A stretch of 46,952 nt of DNA from an uncultured Methanobrevibacter sp. (GTDB lineage Archaea; Methanobacteriota; Methanobacteria; Methanobacteriales; Methanobacteriaceae): NCBI GenBank assembly GCA_902771225.1, contig CACXWH010000018.1, forward strand, positions 1-46,952, read 5' to 3'. Position numbers and translations under genes: made by a program. The notes under the pieces are model-generated. The model did not search any database. It was not told the DNA's origin and was given only the letters and a program-made list of their open reading frames with translations. Shown here piece after piece: positions 3 through 28,382 of the stretch; position 1 is the stretch's first letter; every line of letters starts with the position of its first letter.

Positions 3-107
3 AAAAATATTAGAAATGATTTATCAAGATATTATAATTTTATTCCTTGGATTAAAATTCCATTATCTTGGGTTAGTTTAAGATTGGAGTGGTTTGATGT
101 CAAATAA
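3..107 (+). CDS. cas10: Cas10/Csm1, C-terminal end only (partial)
   Basis: An open frame enters from the left edge and stops at 105-107 after 34 codons, ending in LRLEWFDVK. It overlaps the ATG of csm2 at 97 by 11 bases, the same tight packing as the rest of the operon. In type III-A loci the gene directly before csm2 is cas10, the large subunit that carries the HD nuclease and cyclic-oligoadenylate synthase (GGDD) domains. None of those diagnostic parts lies in the window, so the identity comes from gene order, not from motifs. Confidence 0.7.
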   Translation, partial: KNIRNDLSRYYNFIPWIKIPLSWVSLRLEWFDVK

Positions 108-534: not shown

Positions 535-1288
535 TGAAAATTATATTATTAAAGGTATAATTTCCTGTGAAACTGGACTTCATATTGGAAATTCAAATGA
601 TAATATTGATATTGGGGGAAGTGATAAACCAGTAATTAGAGACTCTATTAATAATTTCCCTTTTATACCTGGATCATCATTAAAAGGAAAATTAAGAGCA
701 CTTTTAGAATTAAATGATTTTTCATCTTCTGAAAGTGTAAAAATTAATCGTGGAAAACCTTCTAGGTCTATTGATTGTGTTGCCACTCAAATTTTTGGAA
801 TAGCTTCATATAAAAGTACTATAGAAGAAAAACTTATATTAAAATATCCTACTCGTATAATTGTGAGAGATTCTTATCCTACAGATAAAACAATAGAAAC
901 ATGGAAAAAGAGTGAAGATGTTTTTGGTGGAGCTGAATTAAAATACGAAAATTTAGTAGATAGAATTAATGCTAATTCATATCTTAGAAATATTGAAAGA
1001 ATACCTCGGGGTTCTGAATTTAATTTTGAGATTATATTTTCTGTTTATGAAGGGGATAATGAAAAAAATTTTATTGAGATTTTAAGATCAATGCAATTAT
1101 TAGAAGATAATTATTTAGGTGGTTCTGGAAGTAGAGGTTTTGGAAAAGTTAAATTTAAGGAAATAAAAATTATTAAGAGAGATTTGGATTATTATAGGGA
1201 AGGCATAATTTATCCAAAAAATACATTATGTTTTGATTCTATTTATGATGCTTATATTTTCTTTAAAAAAGGTTTGGAAGGTAAATAA
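527..1288 (+). CDS. csm3: Csm3 (Cas7-type RAMP), target-RNA nuclease subunit
   Basis: A 253-residue Cas7-family protein that builds the crRNA-binding backbone of the Csm complex and cuts target RNA at 6-nt steps. The N-terminus has the family signature ETGLHIG, then GGSDKPVIRD, then PGSSLKGKLR at about residues 48-57. The catalytic aspartate known as D33 in Streptococcus Csm3 falls at exactly residue 33 here (in IGGSD), so RNA cleavage should be intact. A C-terminal glycine-rich stretch (GGSGSRGFGKV) is the usual RAMP loop. A strong GGAGG lies about 10 bases before the ATG, inside csm2, and the two genes overlap by 8 bases. Confidence 0.95.
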   Translation: MFNENYIIKGIISCETGLHIGNSNDNIDIGGSDKPVIRDSINNFPFIPGSSLKGKLRALLELNDFSSSESVKINRGKPSRSIDCVATQIFGIASYKSTIEEKLILKYPTRIIVRDSYPTDKTIETWKKSEDVFGGAELKYENLVDRINANSYLRNIERIPRGSEFNFEIIFSVYEGDNEKNFIEILRSMQLLEDNYLGGSGSRGFGKVKFKEIKIIKRDLDYYREGIIYPKNTLCFDSIYDAYIFFKKGLEGK

Positions 1289-1289
1289 T

Positions 1290-2246
1290 ATGATAGTATA
1301 TATTTATCCAATTTCATTATTTCCAGATTTACATTCAGATAAAATTTTTGGAGCCATATTATCTACATTAAATGACTTATTTCCATCAATTACAGATACT
1401 GTAATTAAAAGATTTAAACAAAACAATCCACCATTTTTGATTTCATCAGCTTTTCCTTTTATTAATATTAATAATAAAAAAATTCGTTTTTATCCAAAAA
1501 TTTTATTAAATGATGAATCAGATTTCAATGGAGATTTAGAAATAATAAAAAACTTTGATGATGTTAAATTTTTACAGGAGGAAATATTTTTCGATATAAT
1601 TAATGGAAATTTATCTTTTAATCAAATATTAAATAATTATGGAAATTATTTTCAAGTTGATGAATTTTTACTAAATCAAAACATAGATATTCAAGAATTA
1701 AAAAATTTTTCTAAAAGAATGATAGTTTCTCAAAATAGTATAAATAGATTAAATAACTTTTTTAAAGTTTTTTATAGTGAAGGAATTAAATATAATGATG
1801 TTCATGGGTTATTTTTCCATATATCTTTTTTTGATGAGGGGTTTATTGAAATTTTCAAAGCAGTTTTAAGATTATTAAAAGATAGGGGTTTCGGTAGTAA
1901 AATTTCAATAGGTCGAGGTCAATTTAGTTATGAACTTGAAAATGATGATGTTTATAAAAATCATAATTCGAAATTTTCTATTAATAATAATTATTTTGTT
2001 ACCCTTTCTAGATTTATTCCAACATCAGATGATTTAAAATTTATTGATTTAAATTCCAATTATGAATTATATTTTAAAAGAGGTATTGATAGATTTGGGG
2101 ACTTTCGTAAACAAGCAATATTCTTTAGTGAAGGTTCAACATTTTTAGGAAATGAAAATAATTTTTTTGGAAAATTATTTGATTCGAGTGAAAATTCTGT
2201 TGAATATGGTTTTGCGTTTAATCTAAAAATAAATGTGATAAAATGA
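1290..2246 (+). CDS. csm4: Csm4 (Cas5-type RAMP), crRNA 5'-tag binding subunit
   Basis: A 318-residue protein with the Csm4 hallmarks: an N-terminal DLHSDKIFGAI motif (the family consensus is close to HSDTLFGAI), a SSAFPF segment, a FYPK segment, and a late glycine-rich GFGSKISIGRGQF loop. Csm4 binds the 5' handle of crRNA and joins Cas10 to the backbone. The frame is open upstream from 1233, but the ATG at 1290, one base after the csm3 stop, gives the normal N-terminus MIVYIYPISLFPDLHSD. The last bases overlap the csm5 start by an ATGA junction. Confidence 0.93.
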   Translation: MIVYIYPISLFPDLHSDKIFGAILSTLNDLFPSITDTVIKRFKQNNPPFLISSAFPFININNKKIRFYPKILLNDESDFNGDLEIIKNFDDVKFLQEEIFFDIINGNLSFNQILNNYGNYFQVDEFLLNQNIDIQELKNFSKRMIVSQNSINRLNNFFKVFYSEGIKYNDVHGLFFHISFFDEGFIEIFKAVLRLLKDRGFGSKISIGRGQFSYELENDDVYKNHNSKFSINNNYFVTLSRFIPTSDDLKFIDLNSNYELYFKRGIDRFGDFRKQAIFFSEGSTFLGNENNFFGKLFDSSENSVEYGFAFNLKINVIK

Positions 2247-3367
2247 AAAATCCTACTAAATATGAAATTCCAATTAATATTATAACTCCAATACATATTG
2301 GTTCAATTGATACATTTAGTGCTAATGAATATCTATTCTTAGATGATAAAGTTCATAGAATAGATATTGTAAATTTTTTTAATTCATCATTAAATAATCG
2401 TAATAAAGAAAAATTTATTAAACTTATCCAAGATGAAAATTTTAAATTATCTGATTTAAAATATATTGATGTAGATTTATTAAAAAGTTTTTCAAAATAT
2501 TATCTAATTGATAAATGTTCAGAATTTGCAAAAGATAATAATGTTCAAATTGAATGTGCAGTCAAATCACAGAATAAACTTTATATTCCAGGTTCCTCTA
2601 TTAAAGGAGCTATTAAAACTGCTTTATTATATAATTGCATTAAATTTAATCAGGTTCCGGATATAATTAATAAGGTTCTTTTTCATGATTATGGTTCCAT
2701 TATAAACGATTATTTTATATCATCTCATGAAAATTCTACTATATTTAATAATATCCTGCGTTTTTTACAAATTGAAGACAGTTCAAATTTTGATGATGCA
2801 CCTCATCTTCATGAGGTTATACATTGGTATGTTGACACTGAAAAAGAAAAAATGTTTTATAAAAAATTTTTAACACGTTATTTAGAAACAATTCCTGAAT
2901 CCACACTTAAAACTACAATAAGAATGAATTACAAAAAAAAATTTTTTGAAGATTTAAATTTCAGTGAGAGTATGGAAAAGATATTGGATGTTAATATAAT
3001 TTCTGAATCTTTATTTTTATTTGCAGATGATTTAATTAATTTTGAGATTGATTTTTTTTCTGAATTTAATAGATATGATTTAGTTGAATTTTATGAAGAA
3101 TTAATGAAGTATAATCATTATAATAAACCATTAATTTTGTTGGGTGGTGCAAATGGTGTGGTTTCAAAAAATATTTATTTAAAAATTTATGAATATGATA
3201 AACAGAATGATACTCATTTTTCTGAGAATTATGCGAAATTATTATTCGATTTTGATGATGATTTAAAATTTCCAAAATCAAGAAGATTTACCTATAAAAA
3301 CTCTGAACCTTTGGGTTGGGCTCAGTTAGATTTTAGTAGTTATATTAAATGTAGGAGAAAAAAATGA
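2243..3367 (+). CDS. csm5: Csm5 (Cas7-like RAMP), distal backbone subunit
   Basis: A 374-residue RAMP protein. The N-terminus has ITPIHIGS, typical of Csm5/Cas7, and the conserved PGSSIKGAIKTALLY helix follows at about residues 116-130. Csm5 caps the 3' side of the Csm complex and helps recruit nucleases for crRNA 3' trimming. The C-terminus (SEPLGWAQLDF) resembles the usual Csm5 ending (G-W-h-). Start and stop both use 4-base ATGA overlaps with csm4 and cas6, so all five genes are one transcription unit. Confidence 0.93.
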   Translation: MKNPTKYEIPINIITPIHIGSIDTFSANEYLFLDDKVHRIDIVNFFNSSLNNRNKEKFIKLIQDENFKLSDLKYIDVDLLKSFSKYYLIDKCSEFAKDNNVQIECAVKSQNKLYIPGSSIKGAIKTALLYNCIKFNQVPDIINKVLFHDYGSIINDYFISSHENSTIFNNILRFLQIEDSSNFDDAPHLHEVIHWYVDTEKEKMFYKKFLTRYLETIPESTLKTTIRMNYKKKFFEDLNFSESMEKILDVNIISESLFLFADDLINFEIDFFSEFNRYDLVEFYEELMKYNHYNKPLILLGGANGVVSKNIYLKIYEYDKQNDTHFSENYAKLLFDFDDDLKFPKSRRFTYKNSEPLGWAQLDFSSYIKCRRKK

Positions 3368-4020
3368 AATATAATATTGTAAAATTATTTTTAAAAACAG
3401 ATGATCAAATATTGGATAATACTTCAAAAATAAGAGGTTTTATAGGTAATAAATTTAAAGAGTATAATTTATTACATAATCATTATGGAAATAATTATAT
3501 ATTTACATATCCTAAAGTTCAATATAAAATAGTAAATGGTAAAATTTTAATTTTAGGAATAAATGAGGGTGGAGAGATTTTAAAAAAAATTTCTTCTAAT
3601 TTAAATTATTTAGATTTAGATAAAAAATATCATATTTCTGAAAAAATTATCCATGAAAAAATCTTTGATATCAAGCCCACTATTGATGCAAAACATTATA
3701 AATTTGTAACTCCTTGGATTGGACTCAATACTAATAATTATCAGAAATTTAAAAGAATAAATAATTGGAGAGATAAAAAAATATTATTAAATAAGATTAT
3801 TGTAGGGAATATTTTATCGTTATCAAAAGGTTTGGGGATTATTGTTAATAAAAAATTATATGCCAAAAGTTTTTTAAATGAAGAAAATATAATATATAAA
3901 TCAGTTAAAATGAATGCTTTTAAAGGTGAATTCAAAATTCATTATGATTTGCCAGATTATATCGGTATTGGAAAGGGAGTGAGTCATGGATTTGGTTGTG
4001 TGAAAAAATTAATTAAATAA
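3364..4020 (+). CDS. cas6: Cas6 (Cas6b-like) crRNA-processing endoribonuclease
   Basis: A 218-residue protein translated from an ATGA overlap with csm5. The N-terminal half (KIRGFIGNKFKEY, then IFTYPKVQYK and ILILGINEGGEIL) and the C-terminal glycine-rich GIGKGVSHGFGCVKKL loop match the RAMP-type Cas6 layout, closest to the Cas6b group seen in methanogens. Cas6 cuts the long crRNA precursor within repeats. A general-base histidine cannot be assigned by eye; His residues at HNHYG and HYKF are candidates. As the last gene of the operon it supplies crRNA maturation. No array follows it here, so its substrate array must be upstream of the window or elsewhere. Confidence 0.82.
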   Translation: MKYNIVKLFLKTDDQILDNTSKIRGFIGNKFKEYNLLHNHYGNNYIFTYPKVQYKIVNGKILILGINEGGEILKKISSNLNYLDLDKKYHISEKIIHEKIFDIKPTIDAKHYKFVTPWIGLNTNNYQKFKRINNWRDKKILLNKIIVGNILSLSKGLGIIVNKKLYAKSFLNEENIIYKSVKMNAFKGEFKIHYDLPDYIGIGKGVSHGFGCVKKLIK

Positions 4021-5298: not shown

Positions 5299-8200
5299 AT
5301 GGCAATTGAATTGAATGAGGAACAGAAAACAATCGTTGAATATGCTGATGATAAATTTTTAAGTGTGCAGGCGGGGCCTGGTTCCGGAAAAACACGCGTA
5401 ATAGTTGAAAAAGTCAAGTACATGGTAAAGGAATTGGGAATTAATCCTGAATCATTTTTAATAATTACCTTTTCTATAAAAGCGGCTGATGAGCTAAAAG
5501 ACAGGCTGATTGAAGGGGAAATTCCTGCAAGTGATGTTCAAAAGATGCAGATATCAACAATCCATTCATTCTGTTTAAAAATCCTTGAGGATACTGGAAC
5601 TGTCGGATTGGACATTATTGCTGAAGGCGACAAGCAAAATCTATTCATCAAAAAGCATTTGAAAGACCTTGGATTTGAAAATGAATCTTATGTCAGAACT
5701 TATGAAATTGATAATATAATAAAAAAATACGGTGAATATTCCACGTTCAATGTCGATACTGAAAGATTAACAGACTATCTTGAGGAAAAATTCCCTGTTG
5801 CAGATGAATTTGTCGAATATGTCCGCAACTACATGGATGAAAATGACGGTGCATTTCCGCTAGATGAGATTAAAGAGATTGACATAGAAAACGACAATAC
5901 ATTATTCAAGGATTCCTATAACAATGCAAAATACATTCAAATGGCAAGATCATATCCATTATACTTGCAATTATTAGAAAAGGAAAATTCAATTGACTAT
6001 AATCAGATGCAAATTAAAGCCTTAAAGAAAATGAACGAAGGATACATGCCAAAATACACCAATATATTAATTGATGAGTTTCAGGACACGGATCCTGTTC
6101 AGATGCAGCTTTTCTCAAAATTCATCGAAAGTCCTCAAACAGAATCATTTACTGTTGTGGGAGATATCAATCAAAGTATTTATGGATTCAGAGGTTCAAA
6201 TAAAAATTATTTCAATGAATTAAATAAGCAATATCCGGATAAATTCCAGGAAGTTTTTCTTTCATACAATTATCGCTCAACCGAAGAAATAATAGATTTA
6301 TCACAGGATTTCATCTCAAATCATTATGACTCAAAAAGCGATTTAATGCCTGCAAAATGCGGATCAGGAAAACACAATGATTTGTATTTCATGGTCAATA
6401 ACGATAAAAATGCTGAAGCGGAAAATATATTGGAAATCATCAGATACATCACTGCAGATAAAAGGATGAACTTATCAGATATTGGAATTCTGACGCGGTC
6501 AGTCAAATCCCGTTCATCATGTATAAACACATTAACTGAACTGTTGGAAAAAAACAATATCGGCTATCAGTTAAGGGGAACCGGAGATTTGGAGGATAAC
6601 AATGATTTAAAATATATACTGACATTAATGTATCATTTAATCCAGGATGAAGATCCATATTACACATTTGTGCCGAAAGAGACTCAGGACTGGCTGAATC
6701 TGAAAACATTGACTGGTGCAAATGAAATCACACCTCTTTTTGAACTGTCGGATGACACAAAGGCAATTTTAAACAGTCTGCAGGATAAATTTGAACAAAG
6801 TGTCATTGATATGGATAAAATAGTATGCTCTGAAAATGAAGGATGGGGAAGAGGAATTCAAAAATTCAGAGGAATATTTTCAAAGGATAATGAACGTAAG
6901 GATGAAGTCTTCAGCCGTATCAAAAAGCCAATATTATCAGATGAAAACCTGATTAAATACGGCATTACAGATGAAAATGACATAAGATTTTTCAATGCAT
7001 TAAATGAATTGAAAAGAAGGGTGAATGCAGAAAAATATTATGACAGACCTACAATTTCAGAGGTCTATTTTGAATTGCTCTGTGATATTACCGGATATTT
7101 GAACGAAGACTTGGTAAACAATAAAGAGGATGCTGTAAATGACTTGGCAGCAATCATCCCTTCAATGTCAGTTTACGGTGAGGTGATGTATGAGCGAAGC
7201 CTTAGAGGAGCATTCTGGTTTATCAAAAACTCAATTAAAAATCTTGATGCATACAAGCCTGATGAGGATGCAGTCCAAATAATGACAGTTCACGCATCTA
7301 AAGGACTGGAATTTCCGGTAGTAATCCTTGCATCACTTCGTGATGACGGTTTTCCTTCAAAATTCAAAGGAATTGATGAAGACTCAGTAACATACACTCC
7401 TGATGAATTCTATGGATATGACAAGTATGATGGGGACGCTGAAACTTCACATCTTCAGGAGGAAGAAAGGGTAATATATGTTGCTAAAACCCGTGCAGAA
7501 GACGAACTGATACTGTCAAGCATCGTCAAGGATACTTCTGAAAGTGTTGAGAATGCTTTTAAGGAATATAGTAAAGAAAATGTTAAGGCAATTGAAAAGG
7601 GTCCAAAACGTATTAATGATGTAATAGATAATAATTTCGATAATTTCAAGATAATCAATCCGTCAAATATTGACATTAACTTACTTAATCCTAAACATTC
7701 AGATGAAGATGAGGAAATTATAAATTTAAGTTTTACTGCACTTGAAAACTATAATGAATGTCCATTTAAATACAAGCTGTTAAACGAACTTGGCTTTAAA
7801 ATCAATCAGAAAAAAGAAATCGATGACGGAATATTCATACATTCCGCTTTAGAAATCATCAACAAAAAGATAAAGGCAAACAAAAACAATTATGTTGGTG
7901 ATGAAGAGGTAACAAGAACTGTTGAAATGTTATTTGAAAAGGCAAACTTAAAGTTCAAGGAAGAACGTCCTGAAAAATATGAAAATAAACTGAAAACAAT
8001 CACTAAAGACGTTATCAGATACTATCATGAAGTTGGAAATGACTTAACAATAATAAACAGTGAATATCCCTTCTACATCAGAGGTGATAATTATGCATTT
8101 TCTGGTGTTGTTGACTTAATCTATGAAAAAGATGGTAAACTTGGAATACTTGATTATAAAAACACTTCACTTGTCGGAAAGGAATTTTTAGCAAAATATA

Positions 8201-8460
8201 GAAAGCAGCTTCATTTTTATGTGATGGCACTTCGTGATGAAAACAAGGAATTTGAAGGTCATAAAATTGAAGAAATTCAAATATATGCAATTAAATATCA
8301 GAAAGGTGATAAATTATTCTCATTTGATATAGATGATGATTATATTGAAGATTTAAAAGAGGAATTACATTCAACAGCTCAAAAAATTAAAAACAATGAA
8401 TTTAAAGCTGAATGTGAGGACTGTACAGGTTGTCCTTATAGAAAGATTTGTAAAAAATGA
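5299..8460 (+). CDS. UvrD/AddA-like SF1 helicase with RecB-family Fe-S nuclease
   Basis: A 1053-residue ATP-dependent DNA helicase-nuclease. Motifs in order: Walker A GPGSGKT (26-32), STIHSFC, Walker B DEFQDTD (259-265), VVGDINQSIYGFRG, a YRST segment, MTVHASKGLEF (about 662-672) and a late VAKTRAEDEL. The C-terminus is a PD-(D/E)XK RecB-type nuclease with GVVDLIYE (D939) and ILDYKNTS (D952, K954). It carries the AddB/Cas4-like iron-sulfur cysteines: one in ECPFKYK near 778 and a terminal C-x2-C-x5-C (CTGCPYRKIC). A GGAG precedes the ATG. The likely role is DNA end processing, recombination repair or destruction of foreign DNA. It follows the SWIM gene in the same direction. No AddB partner is visible. 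Confidence 0.92.
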   Translation: MAIELNEEQKTIVEYADDKFLSVQAGPGSGKTRVIVEKVKYMVKELGINPESFLIITFSIKAADELKDRLIEGEIPASDVQKMQISTIHSFCLKILEDTGTVGLDIIAEGDKQNLFIKKHLKDLGFENESYVRTYEIDNIIKKYGEYSTFNVDTERLTDYLEEKFPVADEFVEYVRNYMDENDGAFPLDEIKEIDIENDNTLFKDSYNNAKYIQMARSYPLYLQLLEKENSIDYNQMQIKALKKMNEGYMPKYTNILIDEFQDTDPVQMQLFSKFIESPQTESFTVVGDINQSIYGFRGSNKNYFNELNKQYPDKFQEVFLSYNYRSTEEIIDLSQDFISNHYDSKSDLMPAKCGSGKHNDLYFMVNNDKNAEAENILEIIRYITADKRMNLSDIGILTRSVKSRSSCINTLTELLEKNNIGYQLRGTGDLEDNNDLKYILTLMYHLIQDEDPYYTFVPKETQDWLNLKTLTGANEITPLFELSDDTKAILNSLQDKFEQSVIDMDKIVCSENEGWGRGIQKFRGIFSKDNERKDEVFSRIKKPILSDENLIKYGITDENDIRFFNALNELKRRVNAEKYYDRPTISEVYFELLCDITGYLNEDLVNNKEDAVNDLAAIIPSMSVYGEVMYERSLRGAFWFIKNSIKNLDAYKPDEDAVQIMTVHASKGLEFPVVILASLRDDGFPSKFKGIDEDSVTYTPDEFYGYDKYDGDAETSHLQEEERVIYVAKTRAEDELILSSIVKDTSESVENAFKEYSKENVKAIEKGPKRINDVIDNNFDNFKIINPSNIDINLLNPKHSDEDEEIINLSFTALENYNECPFKYKLLNELGFKINQKKEIDDGIFIHSALEIINKKIKANKNNYVGDEEVTRTVEMLFEKANLKFKEERPEKYENKLKTITKDVIRYYHEVGNDLTIINSEYPFYIRGDNYAFSGVVDLIYEKDGKLGILDYKNTSLVGKEFLAKYRKQLHFYVMALRDENKEFEGHKIEEIQIYAIKYQKGDKLFSFDIDDDYIEDLKEELHSTAQKIKNNEFKAECEDCTGCPYRKICKK

Positions 8461-9103: not shown

Positions 9104-9505
9104 AAGCAACTTACATTATTGTTGATTAAAATGGATTATGGGCAAAGAGGGTTATTATTTTATATGTGGTGGTATTGAAATATCTTGGAGAATTTAGATT
9201 TATTAAAGAGTATTATTTTAATAATCTATCAGCTGTAGATTATCTGGATGTAAAACCTTTTTTTAACTATATTAAAGGATAATTTAAATTCTTTATTTCA
9301 ACATAGAATTGGTATAGTAGAAAATAATATATGTTGTTAGATAGAAAAATAAACACAAGATAAGTATAATTTTATTTAAAAAATTTGAATAGTTAATGAT
9401 TTAATGAATGAAAAATATACATATTTGAATAGAAAAGTAAATACGTTTTAATTGAATGCTTTTAAAGAAATACTCAAATATTATCATTATTTGTCTGTGA
9501 TTTAT
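9104..9505. other. Intergenic, AT-rich, with a possible gene remnant
   Basis: No complete gene is visible. A frame open from about 9130 to the stop at 9280-9282 encodes KYLGEFRFIKEYYFNN and DYLDVKPFFNYIKG, which reads like the C-terminus of a real protein but has no good start and no family I recognise. The stretch from 9283 to 9505 is A/T-rich with TATA-like patches and should hold the promoter of the large helicase gene. Confidence 0.5.
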
Positions 9506-12500
9506 ATGGTTTCAAATAAAATTAATGTAAGAGAAGAAATAGAACTTCTTCGTAAAAAACTTTTAGATATGAGTTTAAGAAATAATTTTCTTAATTTTAG
9601 AGTTTTAAAAAGAACAATACCTATTATTGATGAAAAAATTGTTGATTTATTTGAAATTTTAATTTTAAATGAAAAATCTATGGAATTTTTACCAAAAAAT
9701 AATGATTCTGAAGATTCTAAAAATGAAATTGATGATAAAAAGCTTATTTTAGAAAATCGGGATAACATGTGGAATATTGTTAAAAATGATTCCCATGATA
9801 CAGATAAATGTTCAGATTTCTTTTTACAAACAGATTTAACAGAAAAAAATCTTCAAAAAAACTTATTTACATTATATCAAAAATATAAAACTTCTATAAC
9901 TGAACAAGGTTTAAATACTCTTTTTTTAGCTTTAGGTTTTCTAGAATGGAATGATAATGAACATCAAGAAGAAGCATATAAAGCTCCATTAATTTTAATT
10001 CCTGTTGAGATTTCAAGAGATTCTGTTGGTTCACCATTTAAAGTAAAATGGGATAAATCGGATATTCTTCCCAATCTTTCTCTTCAAAATAAATTAATTG
10101 AACAAAATGTTGATTTTCCTTTATTTGAAGAATTAGAAACTCAAGAGGATTTATGTGATTATTTCAACAAGATAAAAAATATAATTTCTGATAAATCGGA
10201 CTGGAATATACTCAATGACATTTATTTGAGTACATTTAGCTTCAAAAAACTCTTAATTTACAATGATTTATATTTAAATAATTGGTCTAATGAATCATTA
10301 AAAAAAATAGATAAGTTATTGTTTAACCCGAAACCATATGAAATAGGAACATATGAACCCTATGAATTAGATAAAATTGATTCAAAAAATTTATATCAGG
10401 TATTAGATGCAGATTCATCACAAATGGAAGTTATTGAAGTTGTAAAACAATCTAATAATCTTGTTGTGGAAGGACCTCCAGGAACCGGTAAATCACAAAC
10501 TATTGTAAATTTAATTGCTGAGTTAATGGCTAACGGTAAATCTGTTCTCTTTGTTAGTGAAAAAATGGCTGCTTTAGAAGTAGTTAAAAGTAGATTAGAT
10601 GCAATTGGTTTAGGGATAGCTTGTTTGGAATTACATAGTAATAAAGCGAATAAAAGGGCTGTTTTGGATGAATTGGATAAAACATTAAATGATAGTTCAT
10701 TTTATGATTGTCCTTTAAATGATTATGATGAAATGAATCATCTGAAAAATGAACTTAATAATTATTTTAATTCTCTTTATGAATGTTATGGAAATAGTAA
10801 TTTTTATCCATACATGTTATTTGGAATTAAAGAAAGGGAATTAAAGTATTTGGAGTCAAATAATCAAAATATTATTAATTTCAAAATTGATGGTTTATTG
10901 GATTTTGATGAAACTCTTCAAAGAAAAACATTGGCAGATTTAAATAATATTCAAACTACTTATGAATCTGTCTATCCTGTTAGTAAAAATCCCTGGAAAA
11001 ATATTATTGCAGATGATTTACCCCCTAATAAATTAGAACCTATAAAAAATTATTTAAATACAATTTGTTCTGATTTAAATTTATTTATAAATAAATTAAA
11101 TTCTTTAAGTTCTTTACTTAAATGTCCTGAATTAAGTTATTTAAAAGATTTCAATCATTATTTATCGAATTTATATGTTATTAGGCCTGGTTTGTTTGTT
11201 TTAGAAGATGAATTTTCAGTACATAATATTATAGATAAAGTTGAAGAATACCAATTAAGACTTAATGATTTAAATTTAGATGAAAAATTTTCTCCAATGT
11301 TATTCTCTAAAGTAAATGATATTAAAGATAACCTATCTCAACTAACAGCATTATTAAATGAAATAGTTTTATCTTTAAATTGTTCTAATCTTGATAATTT
11401 ACAAAATTATAATCAATATATTGAGAATTTATCATTGCTTGAGCCAGATTTAAAGATTTTAAAAGATAATGATGATGTATTAAATTTAATTAAAAATCTT
11501 GAAGAATATAATAAAATTAATAATTCTATTAATTTAACTGAAAAATTACCAGAGAATTTTAATGAATTTTCTGAGACTTTAAAGCGTTTAATTAATAACT
11601 TATCTTCACTTGATGATATTTCTAAGTTTATTTCAAAAAATACATGTTGTTTACCTTTAAATAATATATCAGAAATTATGGGTTGGATTAATAATCTAAA
11701 GACTTTAAGTCCGGAAATGAAAGTTTTAAACAATACGCAGGATTTAAAAAGTATTGTGGAATATGTAAAAACATTTCAGAGTGATTTAAATTCAATTGAA
11801 ACCAAAAATTTTTCTGAAGATATTGGGTTTTATAAATCAAATGTAAATACCTTACTTATCAATCTTAAAATGATTAAAGAAAATATTGATGATTTTTCTT
11901 CAATTACTGGTGTAAAGATTAATAATTTAAAGGATATTGATAGGATATTGGATGAATCTATGATTTTAAAAAATCCTAATTTATGTAAGTTAGAAGATAA
12001 TTTGGATCTATTAATTAACAAAATTCATCAATATAAAACTAATGTAGCTAATTTAAACATAGATATTTTTAATTTAGACTTAGAAAAAATGTTATCTGAT
12101 GTAAATAAGATTTATGCAGAATTAAATAATCGTTCTATTTCAGTTAATTTACTTTGTACTGAAGATATTGAAAAAATTCAACGCCAATTTGGAAAAATTA
12201 ACGAAGAACTTATGGAATCTCCGTTTAGGAATCATGCTGATGACACTGATTTTAAGGATAAATTAAAAACTGTTTATTTTAATAAAGATAATATTTCAGA
12301 TAATGATTTTAATCAAATATTTGAAGAAATTAAAGAATATTACATGTATAAACCTGATAAAAATGAAATATTTGTTGATATTGGTCAATTTATAAAAAAT
12401 ACTGACGAATTAAACAATTTAATGAATGAAATCATAGATTGTTCATATCATAATTTAAATAATGATTTGGGTTTAAAAGAATTTGATATGATATTTGAAT

Positions 12501-15500
12501 TTGAAAATAATTTGAATAATATAAAAAATAAGATTTTGGAATATGATACTTTTGATATTAATTCAATTGAAGATTTACAATATAATTTAGCAAAATTAAT
12601 TATATTTAAAGGACTATATGATTATATAATATCTAATGATGAAATAGGTAATAAGTACTTTGGAAAGTATTGGAAATCTTATAAAAGTAATTTAAATGAT
12701 TTAATAACTCAGCGTAATGATTTAATAAGATTTAATCAATTAATTAATTCTGGATTATTTAGTGATAGAATTTTAGATAATTTATCTTCTTTTGATAGAT
12801 CTTCATTTTTAACTTTATCAAATAACATTCGAACATTAAAACTGAATATTTTTGAGGGTATTAAAAATATTAATAATAATTTTAAATTAAATTTAAAGAC
12901 AATGTTCTCATTAGATATTAATGAATTACATTCCAATATAAAATATATTATTGAAGATTTAATTGTTCTGGATAAATGGGAATCATTTAAAGAATCCAAT
13001 ACAAATTTAAAATTTTTAGAATATGATTTAGTGGGTGTTAAAAATTCTGTTAAATCTCTACTTAATCATTTTGATGATGAGATTTTCCTGAAAATTTGCA
13101 GCGAAATTAATGAGTTAGAAAGATGTGGTTTGTTAAAACAAGAAATTGATTCTCAAAATGAGATAGCAAAAACGTATTTCTTAGATGATTGGCAAGGTTA
13201 TAATTCAGACATTGAACGTTTGGAAGAACATTATTCTCAATTAATTAAATTCAATAAATTAGTTGATTCTGGATTTTTTACTCAAGATGTTGAAAGTAAT
13301 ATTTCTAATTTAGATTTTATGGATTTTAATCATAAATTGGAAGATATAAACTCAATCAATAAAAATATTTTAAATGATTACAATTACCTAGAAGAATTTT
13401 CATTAAAAAATTTAGATATTAATTCAACAAATATTACTGATTTAAAAGACCAAATAACTGAAATTTTAACTAATTTTAATGATTTAGACGAATGGTTTAT
13501 GTTTAAATCAAATATTGGTATTGAAAATATTCAAAATATGTATCACTATGATTTCGTTAAATTGAAAAATAGTATTAAAAATTTTTCCTATTACTTTGAC
13601 ATGGAAATATTAAAAGATATATCTGCCGAAGTTGCTGATTTAATTAAGTTAAATGATTTAAAAGAACTAATAGACTCTGATGAATTAGGTGAAAAATACT
13701 TTAAAAAATATTGGAATGGAGCTTCTTCTAATTTAAAAAATATTAATTCACATTACAAAAAATTAACTAGATTTAAGGCTTTAGTCATCTCTAAATTTTT
13801 CACATCAAAGACTGAAAAATCCCTTTGTAATTTTGATGTGATGGACTTTAGCGATAAATTATCAAATTTAAATACTTTAAAAGAAAGTATTTTTGATGAT
13901 TTCAATAGTTTAAATTCATTAGGTATTTTTAAAAATAATAAATTAATTTATTCACCTATTAAATCATTGTATGAAAAAATTGACTTTATTAATGAAAATT
14001 TAGGTCAAATTAAGGGCTGGGAAGAATACAAAAAAGAAAAAATTAGCTTATATGATAAATCTAGTGAAGTTATTTATGATTTATTTGATTATGATTTAAA
14101 AAAAGTTAATGATAGCTTTTCAAATCTTTTAATTGATTGTAATTTTAATAATGATTTAGAAAATGAAGTAAACTCTATTTTAAAACTTAAAGAAATTAAA
14201 AAATATATTGATACTATTAATTCAAATGGTATAAATTATTTTGGAGATTTATGGAACAATGTTGATAGTAATACTATTAAATTAAATGAATTCTTCAATA
14301 ATTTGAAGGATTTTAATCAATTACTAAACTCTAATTTCTATTCAAAAGATACACTTTCAATATTAGAGACATTGAATTATGATAAATTTAACTCTTGCAT
14401 AAATGAATTAGAGGATTTAAATAAATCTATTAATAATTCATTTAGTGAACTGAATGAAGTTTTAGATTTTAATGAAATTTTAGATGGTAAAAATGACTTT
14501 AATCTTACTTTAATTGCATTAAGTGATAAATTTAATATGTTAAATAATAGCTATGAAGAATTGGTTAAATTAAGGTCATTTTATTCATGTTCTAAAAGTA
14601 ACAAAAATCCTTATTTAGAAAATATTGTCCCTTGGATATGGGAGGATGAAATTAAGACAGATTGTATAGTTAGTTTATTTAAATTTAATGTTGCTAATAA
14701 TATTTTAAATGAAATGGTAGAATCAAATGTTTGTTTAAGAAATTTTAATGAAAAAATATATAATGAAAAAATTAAAAAATTCCAAAATATTGATAAAGAA
14801 ATTCTCACCATAAATCAGTGTAGGATAAGAAATATTCTAAATGAAAAGAAACCTGTTGTATCAGGTAAATCAATTCCTCCTGCTTCAGAACTTGGAATTT
14901 TAATGAAAGAAATTAATAAAAAGAGAAGAAATATTCCTATTAGGCAATTACTTTCCAGCACATGTAATATTATTTCTAGAATTAAACCTTGTTTTATGAT
15001 GAGTCCTTTATCAGTTGCTAATTTCTTAGATCCAAAATATTATAAGGAGTATTTTGATTATGTGATTTTTGATGAAGCAAGTCAAATTAAAACAGAAGAT
15101 GTAATTGGAACATTTTTCAGAGGTAAGAATTTTGTAATAATGGGTGATTCTAAACAACTTCCTCCAACAATATTCTTCGATAGTGATGATGCTAATGAAG
15201 ATGATGACTCTTTTTATACTGAAATTGAAAGTATTTTAAAATTATGCCGTTCTATTTTTCCAGATAAAATGTTAAAATGGCATTATAGAAGTCGTCATGA
15301 ATCATTAATTTCTGTTTCAAATTATGAATTTTATAATAATAAACTAATTGTATTTCCTTCACCTTTCAGTGAAACAGATGATTTAGGTCTAAAAATAGAA
15401 TATAATCCTGAGAATTATTATGATAGGGGTAAAAGTTCTAAAAATGATGGTGAAGCGAGAGATGTCATTAATTATGCTATTAATCATTTCAAAAAATATG

Positions 15501-16885
15501 GTCATTCAAAAAGTTTAGGTATTGGTACTTTTGGAATTAAACAAAAACAGGCAGTTTTAGAGGAATTAGAATTTAGATTACGTAAAAATCCTGAATTAGA
15601 ACCATTTTTCAATGAATCTGGAGAAAATGGTTTTTTCATTAAAAATCTAGAGAATATCCAAGGAGATGAAAGGGATGTTATTCTAATTAGTGTAGGATAT
15701 GGTTTTGATAAGAATAAGATATTATCAAATAATTTCGGACCATTAAATAAAAATGGTGGTGAAAGGAGATTAAATGTTTTAATTACAAGAGCTCGTGAAA
15801 AATGTGTTGTCTTTTGTAATTTTTTACCAGATGACATTCATGCTTCAAATAGTAACTCTCGTGGGTTAAAAGCTTTTAAAAACTTTTTATTCTATGCTAA
15901 AAATAAAAAACATCCTGTGATAATGGAACCAACTGGTGAAGATTTTGATTCTCCATTTGAAGAATCAGTACATGATTTTTTAGTGGATATGGGTTACAAT
16001 GTTGTAAAACAGGTTGGATGTGTAGGATATAAAATCGATTTAGCTATTGTTGATCCTGATAACTCTGATAAATACGTACTTGGAATTGAATGTGATGGTG
16101 CAACTTATCATTCTTCTCGTTCTGCAAGAGAAAGAGATAGATTGAGACAAGAAATTTTAGAAAGATTAGGTTGGAAATTCCACAGGATTTGGTCTACAGA
16201 TTGGTTTAACTCAAGAAATGCTGCTAAAGAAAGATTAATTGAAGCAGTTGAAGAAGCTATAAAAAATAAAGATGTTCCACCATTCATAAATCCTCCTATA
16301 ACAATTCCTCCTCCTAAACCAAAACCAATTCATACCGTGCCGGATGAAGATTTATTTAAAGATTATGAATATTTTAAAGATAATGTAAAATTAAATAGAT
16401 ATGGCTCAACTAGGATTGGACGTGTCAATTTGATAGCAGATTTGATTAAATATGAACAACCAATTCATATAGAAGATATTTATGAATCTATGAAAATATT
16501 TTTAAATAAGAAAAAAAAGACTAAATATTTTAAAGATTCAATTTTAGCATTGATTAATGCTAATTTTGATAGAAATATTATTTATAGGGAAGGAGAATTT
16601 TATTATCATAAATCATTTGATATTAATAAGTTTACTCCCAGAAAAAGAATTAAACCTAGTTTAAGTAAAATTTCAGATGAAGAAATTAAATTAGCTATGA
16701 TTAATACATTAAAAATTCAATATGATACTCCTGAAGAAGAATTAATTAAAGCTAGTTCAAAGAATTTGGGATTTAATAAAGTGGGAAATAATATTAAGAA
16801 CAGATTTAAAAAATTAATACAGGAATTAATACGAGAAAAAAGAATTAACTTGAATAAAAATGGTACACTTGGTTTAAAAAAATAA
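9506..16885 (+). CDS. HheA-like defence protein: DUF4011-SF1 helicase-Vsr-DUF3320
   Basis: A 2459-residue protein. Order: N-terminal DUF4011 (REEIELLRKKLLDMSLRN, about 8-250); Walker A GPPGTGKS (323-330); a long helical insert (about 480-1750) with two repeat arrays; Walker B DEAS (1856-1859); GDSKQLPPT (1880); HYRSRHESLI; QGDERDVILIS; and the SF1 motif LNVLITRARE (about 2088). A Vsr/MTES_1575-type endonuclease domain follows (ESVHDFLVDMGY, then ECDGATYHSS and WKFHRIWSTDW), then a DUF3320-like winged helix (about 2290-2360). This order matches the HheA architecture reported as an anti-phage gene in the 2020 domain-mining work. The expected role is DNA translocation and cutting of invader DNA. 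The ATG at 9506 is preferred to a TTG at 9452 because the DUF4011 start follows it directly. The insert, which splits the two helicase halves by about 1500 residues, is the unusual part. Confidence 0.88.
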   Translation: MVSNKINVREEIELLRKKLLDMSLRNNFLNFRVLKRTIPIIDEKIVDLFEILILNEKSMEFLPKNNDSEDSKNEIDDKKLILENRDNMWNIVKNDSHDTDKCSDFFLQTDLTEKNLQKNLFTLYQKYKTSITEQGLNTLFLALGFLEWNDNEHQEEAYKAPLILIPVEISRDSVGSPFKVKWDKSDILPNLSLQNKLIEQNVDFPLFEELETQEDLCDYFNKIKNIISDKSDWNILNDIYLSTFSFKKLLIYNDLYLNNWSNESLKKIDKLLFNPKPYEIGTYEPYELDKIDSKNLYQVLDADSSQMEVIEVVKQSNNLVVEGPPGTGKSQTIVNLIAELMANGKSVLFVSEKMAALEVVKSRLDAIGLGIACLELHSNKANKRAVLDELDKTLNDSSFYDCPLNDYDEMNHLKNELNNYFNSLYECYGNSNFYPYMLFGIKERELKYLESNNQNIINFKIDGLLDFDETLQRKTLADLNNIQTTYESVYPVSKNPWKNIIADDLPPNKLEPIKNYLNTICSDLNLFINKLNSLSSLLKCPELSYLKDFNHYLSNLYVIRPGLFVLEDEFSVHNIIDKVEEYQLRLNDLNLDEKFSPMLFSKVNDIKDNLSQLTALLNEIVLSLNCSNLDNLQNYNQYIENLSLLEPDLKILKDNDDVLNLIKNLEEYNKINNSINLTEKLPENFNEFSETLKRLINNLSSLDDISKFISKNTCCLPLNNISEIMGWINNLKTLSPEMKVLNNTQDLKSIVEYVKTFQSDLNSIETKNFSEDIGFYKSNVNTLLINLKMIKENIDDFSSITGVKINNLKDIDRILDESMILKNPNLCKLEDNLDLLINKIHQYKTNVANLNIDIFNLDLEKMLSDVNKIYAELNNRSISVNLLCTEDIEKIQRQFGKINEELMESPFRNHADDTDFKDKLKTVYFNKDNISDNDFNQIFEEIKEYYMYKPDKNEIFVDIGQFIKNTDELNNLMNEIIDCSYHNLNNDLGLKEFDMIFEFENNLNNIKNKILEYDTFDINSIEDLQYNLAKLIIFKGLYDYIISNDEIGNKYFGKYWKSYKSNLNDLITQRNDLIRFNQLINSGLFSDRILDNLSSFDRSSFLTLSNNIRTLKLNIFEGIKNINNNFKLNLKTMFSLDINELHSNIKYIIEDLIVLDKWESFKESNTNLKFLEYDLVGVKNSVKSLLNHFDDEIFLKICSEINELERCGLLKQEIDSQNEIAKTYFLDDWQGYNSDIERLEEHYSQLIKFNKLVDSGFFTQDVESNISNLDFMDFNHKLEDINSINKNILNDYNYLEEFSLKNLDINSTNITDLKDQITEILTNFNDLDEWFMFKSNIGIENIQNMYHYDFVKLKNSIKNFSYYFDMEILKDISAEVADLIKLNDLKELIDSDELGEKYFKKYWNGASSNLKNINSHYKKLTRFKALVISKFFTSKTEKSLCNFDVMDFSDKLSNLNTLKESIFDDFNSLNSLGIFKNNKLIYSPIKSLYEKIDFINENLGQIKGWEEYKKEKISLYDKSSEVIYDLFDYDLKKVNDSFSNLLIDCNFNNDLENEVNSILKLKEIKKYIDTINSNGINYFGDLWNNVDSNTIKLNEFFNNLKDFNQLLNSNFYSKDTLSILETLNYDKFNSCINELEDLNKSINNSFSELNEVLDFNEILDGKNDFNLTLIALSDKFNMLNNSYEELVKLRSFYSCSKSNKNPYLENIVPWIWEDEIKTDCIVSLFKFNVANNILNEMVESNVCLRNFNEKIYNEKIKKFQNIDKEILTINQCRIRNILNEKKPVVSGKSIPPASELGILMKEINKKRRNIPIRQLLSSTCNIISRIKPCFMMSPLSVANFLDPKYYKEYFDYVIFDEASQIKTEDVIGTFFRGKNFVIMGDSKQLPPTIFFDSDDANEDDDSFYTEIESILKLCRSIFPDKMLKWHYRSRHESLISVSNYEFYNNKLIVFPSPFSETDDLGLKIEYNPENYYDRGKSSKNDGEARDVINYAINHFKKYGHSKSLGIGTFGIKQKQAVLEELEFRLRKNPELEPFFNESGENGFFIKNLENIQGDERDVILISVGYGFDKNKILSNNFGPLNKNGGERRLNVLITRAREKCVVFCNFLPDDIHASNSNSRGLKAFKNFLFYAKNKKHPVIMEPTGEDFDSPFEESVHDFLVDMGYNVVKQVGCVGYKIDLAIVDPDNSDKYVLGIECDGATYHSSRSARERDRLRQEILERLGWKFHRIWSTDWFNSRNAAKERLIEAVEEAIKNKDVPPFINPPITIPPPKPKPIHTVPDEDLFKDYEYFKDNVKLNRYGSTRIGRVNLIADLIKYEQPIHIEDIYESMKIFLNKKKKTKYFKDSILALINANFDRNIIYREGEFYYHKSFDINKFTPRKRIKPSLSKISDEEIKLAMINTLKIQYDTPEEELIKASSKNLGFNKVGNNIKNRFKKLIQELIREKRINLNKNGTLGLKK
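11158..12110 (+). repeat. Array 1 in the large helicase: four ~87-residue repeats
   Basis: Four copies start near 11158, 11413, 11681 and 11941 (periods 85, 89 and 87 residues). Aligned anchors: YLSNLYVIRPGLFVLEDE, YIENLSLLEPDLKILKDN, WINNLKTLSPEMKVLNNT and ILDESMILKNPNLCKLED. Each is followed by a helix of the type I-x-K-h-E-E-Y-x-x-x-h-N-x-h-N. The copies are protein-level repeats with low DNA identity, so they are old. Confidence 0.8.
12655..14600 (+). repeat. Array 2 in the large helicase: four ~175-residue repeats
   Basis: Copies start near 12655, 13173, 13695 and 14233 (about 173, 174 and 179 residues apart). Anchors: YFGKYWKSYKSNL, YFLDDWQGYNSDI, YFKKYWNGASSNL and YFGDLWNNVDSNT. Each is followed 10-15 residues later by a segment like LIRFNQLINSGLFS, LIKFNKLVDSGFFT, LTRFKALVISKFFT or LKDFNQLLNSNFYS. 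Between them recurs a W-containing helix (LDKWESFK, LDEWFMFK, IKGWEEYK). Confidence 0.85.
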
Positions 16886-17639: not shown

Positions 17640-18451
17640 ATGAAGGGTTTTAGAGTAAAGATAATTTTATCAGGTTCCCATCCTGAAATCTCAAGGGAAG
17701 TTATTCTTCCTGAAAAAATCAATTTCCGTGAACTTGATTGGGTAATATGTGAGTTATTCTCACTTAAAGACAGGGGCTCATCAGAGTTCTGTCTTAATTA
17801 TGACAGGGGCTTCATATGGAGGATTACCTTTTAAAAAAGCATATCAAAGAGAAAATATGCTTTAACTACCAGTTTGAGTGTAAGTTGCTCTTTGAAATTA
17901 CCTTAAATGAAACCGTAGATTATGACTTGAATTATGTCTCGCTAATCGCTTTTAAGGGTGAGTTTAATCCTGCCGAAGACGTACATGTTTCAGCTTTTAA
18001 CAATATGATGCTAAAAGGCATTGATTTTGAAAAGTTCAATCCCAAAAAAACTCAAAAGGAACTTAAAAAAATCCCGATTCTTAAAAACAAGGCTTTTGAC
18101 ATAAAAATAACTCAAATAAGCAGAAAGAATGTTATCTGGAGGGATTTCATTGTTCCTGAGAGAACCACATTTGCTGAAATTGAAGATTTAATCCTAATAA
18201 CATTTGATACTTCTCCTGTTTCATTTGGCCATGATGATAAAACTGTCGATTATTACTTCAAGTCAAGAATACCAATATATTCAAAAAACGGGGAGTTTAA
18301 AATTGATGTAAAAGGAAAAGTTTACTCAAAGAAAAGTTTTACAGTACTTAAGAAATATTCGGGCGGGCAAAACCCCTTTGATTTGTGGCATGAATATTAT
18401 CCGAAAGTCGAAAGGGATAAGGCTCAAAGTTATTTAGATGATTTTATATAA
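17640..18451 (+). pseudogene. pRiA4b ORF-3-like protein, split by a -1 frameshift
   Basis: The first frame (17640-17834) encodes the start of a plasmid pRiA4b ORF-3-like domain: FRVKIILSGSHPEISREVIL, then FRELDWVICELFSLKD. The second frame (open from about 17804, stop at 18451) completes it with KICFNYQFECKLLFEITL and FKGEFNPAEDV, the usual second half, then adds another copy (FDIKITQISRKNVIWRDFIV, then FAEIEDLILITFD). Restoring one G at about 17818 (TGG-GAG) gives FIWEDYLLKK and a single protein of about 270 residues. The function of this family is unknown; it is common on plasmids and in accessory regions. The next gene starts 9 bases after its stop. It may be a broken gene, a sequence error or, less likely, a programmed frameshift. 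Confidence 0.78.
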
Positions 18452-18459
18452 TTAATGAT

Positions 18460-19971
18460 ATGGTGGATATGTTGGATGATTACTTCAGGCAAATACTTGA
18501 CAGATTTGAAGATGAAAAGACCAAACTATTTAAAGGCAATGACCTGGTTTTAAAAATCAGAAATGAACTTCCAAAAGAAGTTTCAAATTGTTTAGATGAT
18601 ACTTTTACTGTAAAGGCTTACTGCGGCCTAAATTCATGGCCAAAAACTCCATGGGTTAGGATAATAGACAAATCATTTGATTCAGCCCAGGAGGCTCTTA
18701 TTTTACAGTATGATTTTGACACCCGAAAAAAGGTGATGTCATTATCTCTAATTTTAAGGCTTAAAGATATAAGTGAATATAGATCCCTTAAGCACTTTTT
18801 AATTAAAAATCTTGATAACACTAATTTAAATGATTTTGTAATTGATAAAAATGATACTTCAAGTGTAATCATATCCAAAAAATATACCTACAGTCAAATA
18901 AAAAATACAGTATTGAATGGGGATTTGGAGAGAATAATTCCAATCTACCGCATTCTCTCACACCTCTTTAAAAGCTTCACCGATGAAGATGTATTGTACA
19001 GCATGAACTATGACTCTTCATACATAGATGAAGAGTTATGCCTGTGTAAAAGTGCAGTTATTCCTTCAAAAGTGCAAATATCAGACATTTCGGCTGATTA
19101 TCCAAAATACGACAGGTATGAAAATAACTTGAATAATCCAAATGAGCTTTTTACAGACAACACCATTAACCGGATTATCCGATGTGACATCACGCAGGAT
19201 GACTACACCGAGATTTTACATGACATCACAAAAAACGCACAAAATCTCATGTTAAAACTCATAAAAGAAAACGGCATTGATTTAAATGAATTAAAGATAA
19301 AAGACAGGATTTTATTATATTCCAAATCTTTTACAGAAACTGAGTACAAATCAGTCGGAAAGCTTTTAGGTTCATATTCATTTAACGAAATCAGAATCGA
19401 TGACAGGCTTCCCACACCTTTAATCATAACCTCCATTATCCATGAACTTTCACATTTCATCCTTGAAAGAATCTTAAAGGAAGTCATGATGAAAATCCTC
19501 AATACTAATGACACACCGCTCATTTCAAGCTACGTCAAGATACTTCTTGAGGATAATGATTTAAACTACCTGTTGGATGAGTACTGCGCCCATACCGTTG
19601 AGGGAAGATTTGCCCTTTACGGCTTTCAGGATTATTCCTCATTCAAATACAAGCTTGATGAAATATCACACCTCTACTCAAAAGAAGATATTGACTACGC
19701 CCTGATTCTTGCAAACACATTTGCATATGATATTAAAGACATCATGGAGGAATATATTGATGAGGATTTAAGGGAAGAAATCAAGGATGAGTTTTTAAAA
19801 CTAAACGACAGGCCGAACTACGAACCCTTAGATTTGGAAATCGAGTCAAGACTGGAAGGGGATGATTTTAGAGATGCTCTTTCATTGATACTTACATCAG
19901 GAATAGGTGAGGCATTAAGTCAAAAGGACAAGCTTTCAAGATATATGGATAGATTTGAAAGTATTTACTGA
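18460..19971 (+). CDS. Putative MrcB_N (McrB-type N-terminal) domain fused to HExxH metalloprotease-like domain
   Basis: A 503-residue cytosolic protein with no signal peptide. Residues about 5-115 resemble the MrcB-like N-terminal domain: FKGNDLVLKIRNELPKEV, then VKAYCGLNSWPKTPWVRIID, then SAQEALILQYDFD (family pattern G-x-x-x-W-x-x-x-P-W-h-x-h-h-D...SAQ). These domains sit in front of McrB-like or other effectors in restriction systems and are thought to read DNA. The C-terminal half has HELSH at 328-332 inside a hydrophobic helix (IIHELSHFILERI) and DEYCAHTVEGRF about 45 residues later (E374 or E381 as third ligand), the layout of a gluzincin zinc peptidase. No ATPase is present. It follows the pRiA4b-like gene by 9 bases. 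The fusion is my reading; the HExxH part is firmer than the MrcB part. Confidence 0.65.
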   Translation: MVDMLDDYFRQILDRFEDEKTKLFKGNDLVLKIRNELPKEVSNCLDDTFTVKAYCGLNSWPKTPWVRIIDKSFDSAQEALILQYDFDTRKKVMSLSLILRLKDISEYRSLKHFLIKNLDNTNLNDFVIDKNDTSSVIISKKYTYSQIKNTVLNGDLERIIPIYRILSHLFKSFTDEDVLYSMNYDSSYIDEELCLCKSAVIPSKVQISDISADYPKYDRYENNLNNPNELFTDNTINRIIRCDITQDDYTEILHDITKNAQNLMLKLIKENGIDLNELKIKDRILLYSKSFTETEYKSVGKLLGSYSFNEIRIDDRLPTPLIITSIIHELSHFILERILKEVMMKILNTNDTPLISSYVKILLEDNDLNYLLDEYCAHTVEGRFALYGFQDYSSFKYKLDEISHLYSKEDIDYALILANTFAYDIKDIMEEYIDEDLREEIKDEFLKLNDRPNYEPLDLEIESRLEGDDFRDALSLILTSGIGEALSQKDKLSRYMDRFESIY

Positions 19972-27719: not shown

Positions 27720-27734
27720 GGAGAGTTGTTTTAT

Positions 27735-28382
27735 ATGGATAATTTTACTGAGATTTCTGCTGATATGATAAATGAGGTTGAAAAGACCTTGAATTCAGGA
27801 TTCTGCGATTACAGATTAAGGGATTCAAGTTTCAACTGTGAAACTTTCAAAAAAGGTGAGGACATTCATCTCATTCAAACGGTTGGTGATGAAGAAATAG
27901 AACTGGTTTTCGCCACAAAATTTGAGGATGATGCCTATTTCATTTCATCAGGGTTTGATATAATTTGTGATGATCTGCTTGAAGGAAGAGAGTCAAGAGA
28001 TATTTTCCAGTCTGTTAATATGTATTTTAGAAACGTGATTGCAAATCCGGATAAGGATTATAGTGATGATAAGGAATCTTTAATCAATTTTCTTGTTGAA
28101 AGTGATGAGAAATACCACAGAGAGGATCTTGAAGTTCTTCTTGATGAGGATAAGATCCGCGCTGATTATGAACATGACAAATCAGAAATTTATGATAATG
28201 ATGATATGACTGACATTCAAAAGTCTTTGGCCCTAAAGGAGCTTTTACATATGTCAATATGTGAAGTTATTAATGATTTGGAGTTATATTATACTAGACC
28301 TTTGGATTTGTCTCCTGCCGAAGAGCATGAGAAAAACCGTCAGGAAGCCAAGGCTTTGGAAAATGAAATGCAGTTATACTGA
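27735..28382 (+). CDS. Acidic protein of unknown function
   Basis: A 215-residue cytosolic protein, strongly acidic (many Asp and Glu), alpha/beta in the first half (FCDYRLRDSSFNCETFKKGE, then IELVFATKFEDDAYFISSGF) and helical in the second. I recognise no family. GGGAGAG lies upstream of the ATG at 27735, just after the stop of the Ig-like gene, so the two are likely co-transcribed. It is followed by two T-rich patches (28390-28397 and 28428-28436), which would serve as terminators. Confidence 0.7.
   Translation: MDNFTEISADMINEVEKTLNSGFCDYRLRDSSFNCETFKKGEDIHLIQTVGDEEIELVFATKFEDDAYFISSGFDIICDDLLEGRESRDIFQSVNMYFRNVIANPDKDYSDDKESLINFLVESDEKYHREDLEVLLDEDKIRADYEHDKSEIYDNDDMTDIQKSLALKELLHMSICEVINDLELYYTRPLDLSPAEEHEKNRQEAKALENEMQLY

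Follow-up and report, generated by a model that had tools for sequence, protein, structure and literature searches.

ArdC of plasmid R388 consists of an N-terminal domain that binds single-stranded DNA, a disordered joint and a C-terminal gluzincin domain (PMC7213743; this and the other accounts of known systems given here follow excerpts of the papers cited). The protease of ArdC is dispensable for its effect on conjugation (PMC7213743), and the DNA half can therefore act alone. Both PprI and CapP are reported to be proteases that DNA switches on. For PprI the activator is ssDNA, and CapP-CapH is presented as a counterpart linked to CBASS (PMC10904395). In E. coli McrB, the residues that contact the methyl group are Y64 and L68 (PMC3874153). 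Finally, Lit, a zincin-like protease of a defective prophage, acts in phage defence (PMC3506569).

The protein considered here, P0001, is encoded by an uninterrupted open reading frame in an uncultured Methanobrevibacter species, whose genome (G000) comprises 2.36 Mb in 122 contigs. Its features, in coordinates of the window (the whole stretch of 46,952 nucleotides that was analysed), are as follows.

18460..19971, + strand: complete P0001 gene (503 codons and a stop codon), encoding MrcB_N, a linker and a gluzincin-like peptidase
18460..18987, + strand: MrcB_N / McrB DNA-binding-like domain, aa 1-176 (PF12102, AF2, Foldseek, VIA)
18988..19062, + strand: flexible linker, aa 177-201 (pLDDT <50)
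19123..19968, + strand: gluzincin-like peptidase domain, aa 222-503 (A1/A4/A5 alignments, model, VIA, hhalign)
19441..19455, + strand: HELSH, aa 328-332, in the long helix 319-347 (conservation and model)
19576..19593, + strand: DEYCAH, aa 373-378, in helix 367-384 (with E374, likely the third metal ligand)

Translation may start at 18469 instead of 18460, because the relative L023 starts at the equivalent of Met4. The AlphaFold2 model of the whole chain has a pLDDT of 90.8 and a pTM of 0.69, and the relative placement of the two halves, joined by the low-scoring linker, is undefined in it. Searches with P0001 of PADLOC, NCBIfam and (as a single sequence) the PDB gave no useful match. Values of dN/dS (NG86) were 0.09-0.13 in three distant pairs with large dS, taken over the whole gene, 0.22 for the close pair L026-L027, and 0.18-0.25 over the N half in five pairs; dS of the C half was saturated in two pairs, and the whole-gene and C-half values of L028-L029 are absent on account of an N base. 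In the pairs tested, the MrcB_N-peptidase fusions are under purifying selection.

The first-pass annotation of this DNA had proposed an MrcB_N-like domain at the amino terminus and had named the lack of a profile match as the outcome that would tell against it. The Pfam profile MrcB_N (PF12102) does match P0001, at residues 11-119 with E 4.3e-9 and 36.7 bits, above the curated cut-off of 25, and a six-frame search of the genome aligned positions 1-179 of the 183 in the profile to P0001, which is the sole MrcB_N match in its own genome. The annotation also saw no ATPase in the chain, and no AAA+ GTPase is found there by Pfam. Foldseek ranks E. coli McrB-N (3ssc_A) first in the PDB for the N half, with prob 1.00, E 0.023 and a TM score of 0.55 by target length, and VIA aligns the same half with McrB-N entries at Z 8.7-9.5 over 128-141 residues. 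The top VIA score is that of 2a8e (Z 11.1), B. subtilis Q45498, which we take to be a DUF1054 protein; the DUF1054 entry 3mqz scores Z 9.2. Because of these two matches, the fold predicted for the N half, which is of the McrB-N type, is yet not unique to McrB. Comparison of the A2 profile with E. coli McrB-N by hhalign was weak (prob 46, E 2e-4), and the A2 profile had no match at E<=10 among PDB sequences; with Foldseek, P0001 had no match as good as E 0.001 in the PDB and none at E 0.001 or better among viral models.

The equivalents of Y64 and L68 in P0001 are I81 and D85 in two MAFFT modes. Across the P0001 clade, Tyr is found at the first position in 0/9 members and Leu at the second in 1/9, the corresponding figures for McrB-like domains being 12/16 and 11/16, in a comparison that depends on the alignment, as hhalign puts that strand in another register. 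L073, a fusion protein outside this clade, retains both Tyr and Leu, and the equivalent of W49 is kept in all nine clade members. On these residues, P0001 is unlikely to read 5mC in the manner of E. coli McrB, and the earlier suggestion of a sensor of modified DNA finds no support for the P0001 clade, where Tyr64 is replaced in 9/9 and Leu68 in 8/9.

The C-terminal half had been described as zinc-peptidase-like on the strength of HELSH and DEYCAH, a description that conservation bears out. In an alignment of 78 rows (P0001 and 77 relatives from the fetched regions, hence part of the family, with a 103-aa fragment dropped), H328, E329 and H332 are each found in 77/77 rows, one row being gapped, E374 and A377 both in 78/78, H378 in 76/78 and E381 in 73/78; H328, E329, H332, E374 and A377 are also invariant in an 80-row structure alignment. 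The case for the HELSH motif is its conservation across relatives. Gluzincins carry the pattern (E,H)xx(A,F,T,S,G) in their glutamate helix (PMC7213743), and since the E-x-x-A of P0001 fits it, E374 rather than E381 is likely to be the third metal ligand. P0001 has both parts of the gluzincin criterion, namely HExxH and, in a later helix, (E,H)xx(A,F,T,S,G); helix 353-365 lies between the HELSH and DEYCAH helices of the model.

Assignment to a family is less direct. The C half of P0001 matches no Pfam family at E<=1, Peptidase_M78 included. P0001 fails the Peptidase_M78 (PF06114) cut-off of 22 bits, which its paralogue in the same genome (26.0 bits) and some other family members pass, relatives reaching 28.9 bits. 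At E<=1, Peptidase_M78 matches 19/25 A1 members (best 1.1e-5) and DUF6782 matches 20/25 (best 2.6e-4). With hhalign, a set of 12 unambiguous M78 proteins from the same genus is matched with prob 92.6 and E 4.5e-7, over 86 columns that stop before E374. Residues 205-503, modelled alone, reach a pLDDT of 96.6 and a pTM of 0.94. For this model, the best PDB entry in Foldseek is PprI 8slm (prob 0.77, E 0.11, TM 0.19-0.22, 11.4 A rmsd), followed by 8sln, and the best in VIA is ArdC 6i89 (Z 6.0, 132 residues, 3.5 A), with ArdC 6sna at Z 5.5 and PprI 8slm and IrrE at Z 4.4. VIA gave no match at Z 8 or above, and the A1 profile found no credible PDB sequence. As the fold and VIA scores are modest, the likeness of the C domain is limited to the zincin core, which looks like that of a gluzincin; membership in M78 cannot be asserted.

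The M78 likeness of the peptidase family raises the possibility of a regulatory protease of the IrrE-DdrO or CapP-CapH type, in which DNA damage or invading DNA would lead to cleavage of a transcription factor and to gene induction, not to direct killing. Activation of PprI by ssDNA and the CBASS link of CapP-CapH (PMC10904395) fit such a role, as does a winged-helix-type gene, c7, that lies beside eight zinc-ribbon copies of the peptidase (HTH_45 at E 4e-5 in one member). However, c7 adjoins none of the MrcB_N fusions compared, and a comparison of neighbours in the fetched regions found no gene recurring beside all MrcB_N fusions. We regard a regulatory protease as unlikely.

When 100 genomes were searched with P0001, 63 were matched, among them 59/60 of its own genus (own genome included); the other four were matched through the MrcB_N part only. 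According to the 25-row A1 profile, the peptidase domain occurs in 90/151 genomes of the phylum, belonging to 4/20 genera, all within one family. Scanning one genome per species by pattern yielded 100 relatives, the best 80 of which comprise 79 from Methanobrevibacter and 1 from Methanosphaera; 80 regions were fetched, which is fewer than all matches of the P0001 search. The peptidase domain is often preceded by zinc ribbons or TPRs. Zinc ribbons exceeded the Pfam cut-off in 2/2 short versions scanned and in 0/2 versions of 380 aa, and TPR matches were present in 4/4 TPR-fused relatives scanned (L070, L076, L086, L089), two of them over the cut-off. One further protein, of 850 aa (L083:6845-9397), has a long, repetitive-looking N part without a Pfam family over the cut-off, followed by the peptidase.

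The larger subfamilies of the peptidase occupy fixed loci, and their scanned neighbours are mostly non-defence genes. Versions of 380 aa are found near SseB-like genes and TPR-fused versions near Hsp70 genes; the latter (L070-L072, L076, L086-L089) could be a stress module. An OB-fold/DHH protein is encoded at the recurrent locus of the zinc-ribbon versions, and in several genomes a relative of ~325 aa with zinc ribbons lies two genes from this RecJ-like gene, a position that would suit a Spartan-like housekeeping protease, tethered to DNA, that clears proteins stuck on it and has no part in defence. VIA also retrieves 6mdx, an entry for a protease of DNA-protein-crosslink repair that we take to be SPRTN, at Z 3.5, a very low score. 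ArdC itself has been compared with Spartan, whose third ligand is His (PMC7213743), but that of P0001 would be Glu. The patchy distribution of the fusion, seen in 7 genomes of the 31/151 that have any MrcB_N, also speaks against a housekeeping function of this kind, which we consider improbable.

The MrcB_N domain occurs in 10 proteins of the 78-row set, those of the 7 genomes just mentioned. In the peptidase tree (77 rows), nine of these fusions form a clade, at 100/100, with one relative that is truncated by the end of its contig. The tenth fusion, L073, is placed with the HsdR branch (100/94), and the MrcB_N tree assigns it to the other main clade (99/98), although its branch is long in both trees. 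Because both trees separate L073 from the rest, MrcB_N was joined to the peptidase at least twice independently. A single clade for all ten fusions was rejected (p-AU 3.5e-15). L073 lies in a DISARM island (L073:568-18000; DrmA at E 0, DrmB at E 9.1e-164), on the same strand as DrmA and DrmB, with a DinG-like gene on the opposite strand between them. Elsewhere, thirty loci at which genomes of the phylum have MrcB_N matches were checked, the G061 match falling outside this set. They contain 24 distinct ORFs that match the profile used (four duplicates having been taken out of 28 rows). Of these, 21 carry a Walker A motif, two are short and have neither this nor the peptidase, and one is L073 again (L189). 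At four of the 30 loci the profile matched nothing, and these were left unclassified. In this phylum MrcB_N is therefore mostly paired either with an ATPase or with a peptidase of the P0001 type.

Restriction-type modules of another kind have also been joined to the peptidase. In two proteins, HSDR_N and SWI2/SNF2 precede zinc ribbons and the peptidase.

L030:8720-12220: HsdR-like nuclease/motor, zinc ribbons, peptidase
L032:5598-9101: HsdR-like nuclease/motor, zinc ribbons, peptidase

The two are 60% identical throughout, and type I R domain 3 is listed for L030 only, not L032. By eye, the Walker A motif of L032 looks altered. No HsdM or HsdS was noticed next to either protein. Neither the MrcB_N-peptidase nor the HsdR-peptidase fusion is described in the literature searched, which covered few subscription journals.

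Another possibility is that the MrcB_N half has lost DNA reading and that P0001 is a lineage-specific quality-control peptidase with swapped adaptor domains. The replaced base-contact residues would agree with this, as would the TPR-fused relatives near Hsp70 and the others near SseB-like and zinc-ribbon genes. Nevertheless, the W49 equivalent is retained throughout the P0001 clade (9/9), the N half is under selection, with the dN/dS of 0.18-0.25 given above, and two independent MrcB_N fusions plus HsdR would be hard to square with random adaptors. In our view, a loss of DNA reading is about as improbable as a Spartan-like function.

P0001 had been said to sit beside defence-type genes. This holds for the window, where the following lie upstream of it; elsewhere in the clade it holds only partly.

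94-4020: Csm2, RAMP and Cas6 genes
5299-8460: UvrD-PDDEXK protein
9452-16885: Hhe/ProA-like protein of 2,477 aa, DUF4011-helicase-MTES_1575 (a helicase-nuclease; scores below the Hhe/ProA NCBIfam cut-offs)

The gene directly upstream (17816-18451), which has a weak PRiA4_ORF3 match, was considered as an operon partner, but none of the ORFs in the 80 fetched regions matched it at length; two short ORFs similar to it occur at the G135 site described below. This PRiA4_ORF3-like gene (window 17640-18451) appears to be divided between two frames. The window contains no tRNA and no gathering-level Rfam feature. A separate contig of 3,468 bases, L265 (G001:C72), carries a gene 99% identical to window 27726-28379; it is perhaps a stray in its bin and was left out of the comparison.

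L023, in G014, has Cas1 ORFs nearby, as well as relatives of the csm/cas6 genes of the window; judged by sequence, the Cas1 proteins near the clade are two ORFs of this one locus, and one Cas1 PADLOC model matched a third neighbour besides them. At E<=1e-10, 74 neighbours at clade loci matched 90 PADLOC models and 74 control neighbours matched 8, figures on which we base no statistical claim, as the controls were hand-picked and non-random (from 138, at five 380-aa loci and one zinc-ribbon locus); the clade neighbours come from seven loci, and their identities rest on the best 25 of the 90 models. A follow-up with PADLOC on 10/50 neighbours (G009, G035, G046, G022) returned two PDC-S01 and eight without a match. 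The PDC-S01-like ATPase, of a candidate defence system, adjoins the fusion or lies within ~5 kb of it in G009 and G035.

L025:8514-9971: PDC-S01-like ATPase near an MrcB_N-peptidase gene
L026:3905-5362: PDC-S01-like ATPase near an MrcB_N-peptidase gene

Several genes of the clade lie at or near the common flanking genes c3, c41 and c52, and G135 has a site of this type without a fusion gene. The fusion gene is therefore accessory, present or absent at a shared site. Chromosomal flanks in common (c3/c41) are not what would be expected of an antirestriction or counter-defence factor belonging to a mobile element, a role that ArdC would suggest, being the top VIA match of the peptidase and having the same two-part plan. 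Moreover, no relatives were found when viral contigs were searched for the peptidase and with MrcB_N queries, or when phage and plasmid records were searched with P0001. At the sensitivity of these searches a viral or plasmid origin of P0001 is not supported, and we hold a counter-defence role to be very improbable indeed.

Together, our data suggest a model, to which we give about even chances, in which P0001 is an accessory gluzincin that is tethered to DNA or gated by it and is built like ArdC. A McrB-N-type (MrcB_N/DUF3578) domain would be tied by a flexible linker of ~25 residues to a metallopeptidase of the gluzincin type, distantly related to IrrE/M78 and ArdC. The N domain would bind DNA and recruit P0001 to it, the C-terminal domain would bind a metal and be catalytically active, and contact with DNA would position or activate it to cut a protein on that DNA or close by. 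The first-pass annotation went further and proposed a defence effector that triggers proteolysis. Such an inference gains from the two independent MrcB_N fusions, the HsdR fusions and the member in a DISARM island, and loses because the same domain is also found near Hsp70, SseB-like and DHH genes; P0001 may perhaps serve in defence, a role that we rate below that of a DNA-tethered or DNA-gated gluzincin. More tentative, and rather doubtful, is the idea that Methanobacteriaceae built protease-armed restriction systems, in which the gluzincin more than once took the place of the nuclease or motor of a restriction module or was added to it. It would have joined MrcB_N twice and HsdR once or twice, and recognition of foreign or altered DNA would lead to cleavage of protein instead of, or besides, cleavage of DNA.

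If contact with DNA gates the peptidase, P0001 would be a DNA-sensing protease in one chain, made from the reader of a restriction enzyme, and would offer a direct route to asking whether archaeal immunity uses proteolysis after DNA recognition. The family itself supplies natural controls, since a single catalytic domain comes in MrcB_N, HsdR, TPR and zinc-ribbon forms.

P0001 shares with the N-terminal domain of McrB (ADAM/DUF3578, type IV restriction) a profile match and a predicted fold, but has neither the AAA+ GTPase nor the methyl-contact residues Y64 and L68. Set beside P0001 by description, Lit is likewise zincin-like. Lit is not known to carry a DNA-reading domain. IrrE/PprI and CapP are HExxH gluzincins with weak profile and structure similarity to P0001, which differs in falling below the M78 model and in having a large C-terminal helical part; PprI has an HTH part (PMC10904395), and none was recognised in P0001. 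In ArdC, the HExxH and glutamate helices are alpha5 and alpha7 (PMC7213743), and P0001 likewise has one helix between them, but from the second His to the Glu there are 42 residues in P0001 and 24 in ArdC (H205-E229, PMC7213743). Like ArdC, P0001 has an N domain of a DNA-binding type, a disordered joint and a C-terminal gluzincin-like domain; its N domain, however, is MrcB_N and not ArdC-N, and its gene is archaeal and chromosomal. The claim that P0001 represents a new type of effector thus stands in qualified form, since ArdC already joins a DNA-binding domain to a gluzincin, and PprI and CapP are already reported as proteases activated by DNA.
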